49,336 nucleotides of DNA from NCBI GenBank assembly GCA_024690725.1, contig JAILOQ010000088.1:1-49336 (forward strand), written 5' to 3'. The position numbers and the translations under genes were made by a program. The notes beneath the pieces were generated by a model. That model was not told the DNA's origin. It saw nothing but the letters and a program-made list of their open reading frames with translations, and made no database searches. The stretch comes from Lachnospiraceae bacterium (lineage in GTDB: Bacteria > Bacillota > Clostridia > Lachnospirales > Lachnospiraceae). Numbering within the stretch: position 1 is the first letter of the stretch; the number at the start of each line of letters is the position of its first letter. Positions 18,104-19,432 of the stretch are shown here, piece after piece.

Positions 18104-18165
18104 GACTATCTTTTTTTGAAAAAATATTGTAAAATCTTACTAGGTATGTAAAGGAGGGATACAAT

Positions 18166-19053
18166 TTGTTTGATCGAATTTTCGGTAATTATTTAGTAAA
18201 TGCCGGGCACCTTACAAAAGAACAGCTTGCAGAGGTGATCGAGGCGGAGAGTACCACAAGAGTAAAACTCGGATTGATCGCAGTGGCGGAGAAGCTCATG
18301 ACGCAGGAACAGGCGGATGAAGTGAACCACTTACAGACCGTAATGGATAAGCGTTTTGGTGATATCGCAGTCAGCAAAGGTTATCTTACGGATGATCAGG
18401 TATCTTCTTTGCTCAAGAAGCAAGGAAATATCTACATGCTCTTTGTACAGACCGTGACGGAAAAAGGCTTTATGTCGATCGAAGAGATCGATGAGTCGCT
18501 CAGTGCTTATCAGGATGAAAACGGACTGACACATACCGATATGGACGATCTGTTAAGCGGAGACGTAGATCGTACCGTGCGTCTGTTTTTACCGCAGAAC
18601 GATGCGCTTTATGACCGGTTCTGTGCATTGGCTGTTCGTACATTGATCCGTGTGATCAATTCGGGTGCATATGTATCCAAGGCATTTTTGGTGGATGAGA
18701 TCTATACCGATCGTTTCGCTATGCAGAAGGTAGAAGGCGACCACAATATCAGTGCCGGATTCGCCGGTGTGGGTGACGGTCTTCTCTGTATCGCAGAACC
18801 TTTTGCGGATGAAGAATTTGACAGCGTCGATCTGGATGCATTGGATGCGGTAGGCGAGTTTATGAACTGTGTGAACGGTTTGTTTGCAACGGAATTGAGC
18901 AATGAAAACGTGGATATTGATATGCTGCCGCCTGAGTTTTTCGATCATCCGGTTCATATCAAAGGAAAACAGTTTTGCGTATTCCCGATCTATATCGGGG
19001 AAGGTGTTGTGAATTTTATCTTAGCAATTGACGAGTCGTTGGAAGTCAGCTAA
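18166..19053 (+). CDS. Three MshEN-like repeats fused to CheX-like domain
   Basis: TTG start after AAGGAGGG; three 24-aa repeats at 29-aa period (aa 5-86); C-terminal ..DALDAVGEFMNCVNGLFATELS with ExxN motif (E231-N234). Confidence 0.7.
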   Translation: MFDRIFGNYLVNAGHLTKEQLAEVIEAESTTRVKLGLIAVAEKLMTQEQADEVNHLQTVMDKRFGDIAVSKGYLTDDQVSSLLKKQGNIYMLFVQTVTEKGFMSIEEIDESLSAYQDENGLTHTDMDDLLSGDVDRTVRLFLPQNDALYDRFCALAVRTLIRVINSGAYVSKAFLVDEIYTDRFAMQKVEGDHNISAGFAGVGDGLLCIAEPFADEEFDSVDLDALDAVGEFMNCVNGLFATELSNENVDIDMLPPEFFDHPVHIKGKQFCVFPIYIGEGVVNFILAIDESLEVS

Positions 19054-19072
19054 GAATTTAGGAGGTATGAAA

Positions 19073-19432
19073 GTGGCAAATATTCTCATTGTGGATGACT
19101 CCAGAACATCCAGAAAAGTATTACGAGGCATTCTGGAAGAGGCCGGATATACCGTAATTGATGAGGCGGTAAACGGTCAGGAAGGCGCGGACAAGTATAA
19201 AAGTTTAAACCCCGATCTTGTGACGCTTGATATTACAATGCCCGTGATGGATGGAATCGAGGCACTTCGCCTGATCAAAGAAGCCAATGCGAATGCAAAG
19301 GTGATCATGGTGACGGCTGCCGGTCAGAAGAACAAGATGATCGAATGCATCAAGATCGGTGCGGACGATTTCCTTACCAAGCCTTTTGACAAAGAGGAGA
19401 TCATTAACGTTATCAAAAAAATCGTAAAATAA
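19073..19432 (+). CDS. CheY-like single-domain response regulator
   Basis: ILIVDDSRTSRKV, phospho-acceptor TLDITMPVMDG, MVTAAG, LTKPF; GGAGG SD spacing favours GTG 19073. Confidence 0.92.
   Translation: MANILIVDDSRTSRKVLRGILEEAGYTVIDEAVNGQEGADKYKSLNPDLVTLDITMPVMDGIEALRLIKEANANAKVIMVTAAGQKNKMIECIKIGADDFLTKPFDKEEIINVIKKIVK

Follow-up and report, generated by a model that had tools for sequence, protein, structure and literature searches.

A conserved gene pair of Lachnospiraceae: MshEN-type repeats fused to a CheX-like phosphatase domain, next to a CheY-like receiver

A pair of adjacent genes in a Lachnospiraceae genome encodes a protein in which helical MshEN-type repeats are followed by a CheX-like phosphatase domain and, immediately downstream, a stand-alone CheY-like receiver (CheY2). 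Both genes lie within the window, which is the whole 49,336-nucleotide stretch of DNA that was analysed. We put the probability at about one half that the two genes form a CheY phosphatase module controlled by a cyclic dinucleotide, in which the CheX domain acts on CheY2 and CheY2 is charged by CheA.

In such a module, the N-terminal MshEN array would bind a cyclic dinucleotide, with c-di-GMP the likeliest, and the change in the array on binding, in whichever direction it gates, would set the activity or accessibility of the phosphatase. The CheX domain would strip phosphate from CheY2 through the ExxN mechanism, while CheY2 itself would most likely be phosphorylated by the CheA of the flagellar and chemotaxis operon. 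The level of the messenger might then alter the duration of a chemotaxis-type signal, or divert phosphate away from the main pathway.

The gene pair and its repeat array

The locus had been described, in a first-pass annotation made from the sequence alone, as two reading frames separated by 19 nt, and re-reading of the sequence recovers both frames and the gap between the stop codon of the first and the GTG of the second (Table 1). The TTG start of the MshEN-CheX gene is supported by its relatives: in a family alignment of 95 proteins, 91 carry Met where the TTG lies. The neighbours of the pair are housekeeping genes, encoding FtsW, a penicillin-binding protein, a Nudix hydrolase, a DUF2953 protein, and a YtfJ-type sporulation protein. 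A scan for promoters and terminators returned sites no more commonly than shuffled sequences did.

Table 1. Coordinates of the gene pair and its features within the window.
Feature	Position	Strand	Details
AAGGAGG ribosome-binding site, MshEN-CheX gene	18151..18157	+	Direct reading; TTG 8 nt further
MshEN-CheX protein gene	18166..19053	+	295 aa; TTG start; stop included
MshEN unit 1	18178..18249	+	aa 5-28, IFGNYLVNAGHLTKEQLAEVIEAE; Ile at position 1; Glu replaces ligand Gln at position 24
MshEN unit 2	18265..18336	+	aa 34-57; retains K34, G36, Q57; A50/N54 for two guanine-platform leucines
MshEN unit 3	18352..18423	+	aa 63-86; R63, G65, V79, L83, Q86 intact; invariant F64 for MshE Leu39
Fourth helical repeat, non-canonical	18439..18510	+	aa 92-115; same 29-residue period; lacks Gly3 and Gln24
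CheX/CheC-like phosphatase domain	18604..19050	+	aa 147-295; Pfam, Foldseek
ExxN motif E231-F-M-N234	18856..18867	+	In long helix, aa 223-245
AGGAGG ribosome-binding site, receiver gene	19060..19065	+	Direct reading; GTG 7 nt further
CheY-like receiver (CheY2)	19073..19432	+	GTG start; catalytic D8, D9, D53, T81, K103

The array repeats with an exact period of 29 residues, consisting of 24-residue units and 5-residue spacers. None of 5,000 residue shuffles reached the score observed at periods 29/58 (p < 1/5000), which rules out a chance repeat, and autocorrelation across the family places the highest peak at 29 and the next at 58. The first-pass annotation had noted the regular spacing of G7/G36/G65, T17/T46/T75, and Q20/Q49/Q78, all of which do recur every 29 residues. 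It was right about the period but counted three units, and the number now stands at four. In the AlphaFold model of the MshEN-CheX protein (62 sequences; mean pLDDT 93.4, pTM 0.84), the helix pairs extend through residue 118, and a fourth unit is therefore recognised after the three first seen.

Profile and structure comparisons agree on the identity of the repeats. The NCBIfam model NF053729, an MshE-related c-di-GMP motif, matches three stretches of the MshEN-CheX protein (59.9 bits; cutoff 38) and matches all 15 family members that were scanned. Foldseek superposes the model on the structure of MshE with c-di-GMP (5htl) at 0.8-1.2 A over 53-56 columns with a probability of 1.00, providing the structural match to MshEN that had been anticipated, at an E-value of 0.37 that is weak because the matched segment is short. 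That the protein combines MshEN repeats with a CheX domain can be regarded as practically certain. Separately, the N-terminal part of TIGR03029, which models EpsG-type tyrosine kinases, weakly matches residues 33-92 of the window protein, and this resemblance suggests that such kinases may also carry an MshEN-type repeat.

The putative ligand pocket

In MshE, each guanine rests on three leucines, with an Arg above it and a Gln holding the ribose and phosphate (PMC5013675). Projecting these contacts onto units 2 and 3 shows that the second half-site has kept its character (L35, R63, V79, L83, Q86). The first retains K34, G36, and Q57, and has A50, N54, and F64 in place of MshE Leu25, Leu29, and Leu39. 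All four polar contact positions, namely the position-1 base and Gln24 of both units, are near-invariant among 95 proteins: position 34 is Lys in 92 (Arg in 3), position 63 is Arg in 92 (Lys in 2), and Q57 and Q86 are found in all 95. The same ligand contacts are kept in other classes of the phylum. The remodelled residues are conserved too, with Asn at position 54 in 90 proteins and Phe at position 64 in 95, and the first guanine pocket is usually built from Ala/Val, Asn/His, and Phe rather than three leucines. Divergent members follow suit, as 19/22 have Asn or His at position 54 and 22/22 have Phe at position 64; a 23rd (L176), with Ile at position 54, is off the pattern.

We infer a second-messenger-gated phosphatase, one in which the guanine pocket of unit 2 departs, in a conserved manner, from the c-di-GMP consensus. 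Comparison of the pocket with those of MshE, PilF, and XpsE makes it reasonably likely that the ligand is a cyclic dinucleotide, and leaves c-di-GMP itself less sure, at roughly even odds. What counts against c-di-GMP is the non-canonical platform created by A50, N54, and F64, since the changes in XpsE, which has lost c-di-GMP binding, include the equivalents of Leu29 and Leu54 (PMC5013675). Tight binding is further called into question by E28 at position 24 of unit 1, a Glu shared by 25/95 proteins, the window protein included. It resembles the Q190E change in PilF, a Gln-to-Glu substitution at position 24 of one motif that weakens binding ~83-fold (PMC11731258). Units 1 and 2 had initially been considered more degenerate than unit 3, and for unit 1 this was overstated, because PilF can bind very tightly with Lys or Leu at position 1 (PMC11731258).

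These features invite a different reading, in which the array has lost nucleotide binding and is now an arm for structural support or protein docking, with CheX acting constitutively on CheY2; a chemoreceptor array, the motor, or a pilus machine would be examples of its target. The loss of the guanine-1 leucine platform, the lack of motif residues in the fourth unit, and the degraded or missing arrays of some distant loci that keep both CheX and receiver all speak for such an arm. A pure scaffold, however, would need neither the two ribose/phosphate Gln residues nor the two basic residues, which are near-invariant across divergent families, and the pocket substitutions are conserved rather than drifting. 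We consider this reading unlikely.

Another alternative keeps nucleotide binding and changes the ligand, so that the array is a receptor for another or an asymmetric cyclic dinucleotide, such as 3'3'-cGAMP, with a normal half-site at unit 3 and a remodelled one at unit 2. The intact unit 3 half-site fits this picture, as do the conserved change in unit 2, mostly to Asn or His at position 21, and the Phe at position 2 of unit 3, which varies rarely or not at all. All 18 other MshEN proteins from these genomes have hydrophobic residues at positions 17 and 21, the two platform positions in their first motif; nine were matched with a pattern that itself favours such residues, and the remaining nine were read by eye. 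MshE itself also binds cGAMP, weakly (PMC5013675). Against this, the Phe could simply make up the volume lost through the small residue at position 17, with the guanine still stacked, and guanine specificity comes from backbone amides beside the invariant Gly. A ligand of this kind therefore seems improbable. A broader proposal is speculative and rather doubtful: in several classes of the phylum, the dephosphorylation of CheY~P would be gated by a distinct subclass of MshEN receptors with an asymmetric pocket, whose ligand might differ from c-di-GMP.

The predicted phosphatase, its receiver and their conservation

The C-terminal domain passes both relevant Pfam thresholds, scoring 32.3 bits for CheX (cutoff 27) and 31.4 for CheC (cutoff 22). 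In Foldseek searches, the 13 best matches to the model are all CheX-family structures, with E-values from 2.7e-8, and include the Borrelia CheX-CheY complex 3hzh. FliM, FliY, or CheC as the best reading was rejected given these top 13 structures and the single ExxN helix. The CheX identity and the ExxN motif (EFMN, residues 231-234) that had been proposed from the sequence thus both withstand scrutiny: residue 231 is Glu in 92/95 proteins and Asp in 3, and residue 234 is Asn in 95/95. The members with Asp (L020, L022, L024) all have their receiver upstream.

CheY2 is, as had been claimed, a complete CheY-like receiver, with a Pfam Response_reg score of 116.7 bits and a full, conserved catalytic set (Asp-Asp, phosphoacceptor Asp, Thr/Ser, Lys). 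It was rejected as the canonical flagellar CheY of the organism, since the flagellar/chemotaxis contig carries its own, located between fliY and fliO. The two are 50% identical, and the alpha-1 signature DDSRTSRK, found in CheY2 across 80 relatives, is lacking in the canonical protein.

The association between the two genes is strongly conserved. A scan of ~85,000 species genomes returned 442 matching stretches, and the best 80 of the 442 are nearly all from Lachnospiraceae. In 78 of these 80, the receiver gene is the next one downstream. One exception (L033) has an insertion of ~1.6 kb between the phosphatase gene and the receiver. The other (L010/L101) carries an internal TAA in the phosphatase frame, which represents a pseudogene or an assembly error. 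About half of the 80 loci have no other tested neighbour in common with the window, which excludes the possibility that the pair is kept together merely by its housekeeping locus. Where the housekeeping flanks differ, the receiver remains the common neighbour.

The pairing extends to 44 further loci in other orders and classes. In all but a few of these the receiver adjoins the phosphatase, being encoded downstream, upstream, or fused in the same chain, and the tree requires two separate receiver fusions. The exceptions are L004, with an insertion, L023, near a contig end, and L185, which is a second paralogue in genome G307 and has no adjacent receiver. In the distant loci L180-L184, the receiver is upstream, the MshEN array is degraded or absent, and the CheX domain is retained. 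The conservation of the gene pair, which the first-pass annotation had suggested checking, is thus well established, and CheX very probably acts on the adjacent receiver.

Cultured species carry the module as well. Kineothrix alysoides encodes it as separate genes. In Lachnospira eligens ATCC 27750, the homologue WP_012740644.1 is annotated only as "response regulator" and has a length that fits an MshEN-CheX-receiver fusion; its gene lies at NC_012780.1 327730-329037 (L190:4001-5308), and the replicon, which is circular and 627 kb long, also bears housekeeping genes.

Genomic context and known systems

Inspection by eye of the ORFs in the window turned up no gene for an MCP, CheA, or a flagellar component. 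The earlier statement that kinase, MCP, and flagellar genes are missing holds for the window, but such genes are present elsewhere in the genome. Input and output, previously called unknown, thus have candidates in the same genome, which encodes one CheA, a full flagellar and chemotaxis set, flagellins, and 29 GGDEF domains. One of its contigs carries flhA-flhF-cheB-cheA-cheW-cheC-cheD together with a flagellar-type sigma factor, with CheC verified by profile, CheA in a separate search, and the remaining genes recognised by eye. An ORF on the flagellar/chemotaxis contig (L113:13461-14177) has, by eye, the look of a PilZ/YcgR-type flagellar brake, which, if so, would offer a second route from c-di-GMP to the motor.

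Since no kinase or motor gene is linked to the pair, the assignments of CheA and of a flagellar output draw on genome content. In a set of 53 related genomes, picked mainly for completeness and before the CheA result was known, CheA is present in 19/19 carriers of the module and 17/34 non-carriers (one-sided Fisher p = 7e-5). The association persists at one genome per genus (p = 7e-4), the only way in which shared ancestry was handled. Three distant genomes (L186:1979-4350, L171, L179) have a kinase with CBS, HPt, and HATPase domains after the receiver, possibly a dedicated CheA-like partner in those members. As a general partner this linked kinase was rejected, as it is adjacent in distant members only, and in the window's own genome CheA is the only strong match, at threshold, to the HPt-type kinase of a distant relative. 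CheA is probably the kinase of CheY2.

A flagellar output is slightly favoured. Flagellin was found in 18/19 carrier genomes, and CheY2 keeps the form of a stand-alone, single-domain CheY. The competing view is that the module is not dedicated to the motor, with CheY2 directed instead at type IV pili, sporulation, or metabolism, or serving as a sink for CheA phosphate. This view draws on the separate canonical CheY, the limited identity and different alpha-1 signature of CheY2, the other, PilB-sized MshEN proteins of these genomes, and the carrier G048, which has CheA and no flagellin match. With the flagellin count and the CheY form against it, it is a possible reading that we hold to be somewhat doubtful.

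If the phosphatase is gated as proposed, the step that ends a chemotaxis-type signal would be under the direct control of a second messenger, and the open papers that were searched yielded no report of such control. Gut Lachnospiraceae commonly carry the module (442 matching stretches in a single genome collection), cultured species among them, and it is consequently open to direct testing.

The array shares with the MshEN/GSPII domain of Vibrio cholerae MshE and Thermus PilF (PMC5013675, PMC11731258) the 24-residue motif, the 5-residue spacer, the two-helix units, and the fold, and units 2 and 3 also share the position-1 base, Gly3, and Gln24. It differs in having four units per array fused to a phosphatase rather than an ATPase, in the absence of both platform leucines from unit 2, and in the replacement of Leu by Phe at the second position of unit 3. 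The MshEN-CheX architecture is not new, as Wang et al. 2016 already listed CheX among MshEN-associated domains. The main text of that paper does so in one sentence, naming the same two domain families without receiver pairing, distribution, residue analysis, or mechanism. No study of an MshEN-CheX protein was found in the open papers searched. Within that literature, the receiver dedicated to this phosphatase, the three ways in which it is arranged, and the conserved remodelling of the pocket appear to be undescribed.

The CheX proteins of Thermotoga maritima and Borrelia burgdorferi (3hzh) have the same fold, single ExxN helix, and receiver partner. The window protein is 15-20% identical to the solved CheX proteins and adds an N-terminal sensor array, and the pair sits outside the flagellar and chemotaxis operon. 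Cyclic di-GMP also meets chemotaxis in other ways: it binds the receiver itself in the CheY-like Cle proteins, and a methyltransferase regulator in MapZ. In both, the messenger likewise acts on chemotaxis or the motor, whereas here it would act on the dephosphorylation of CheY~P.
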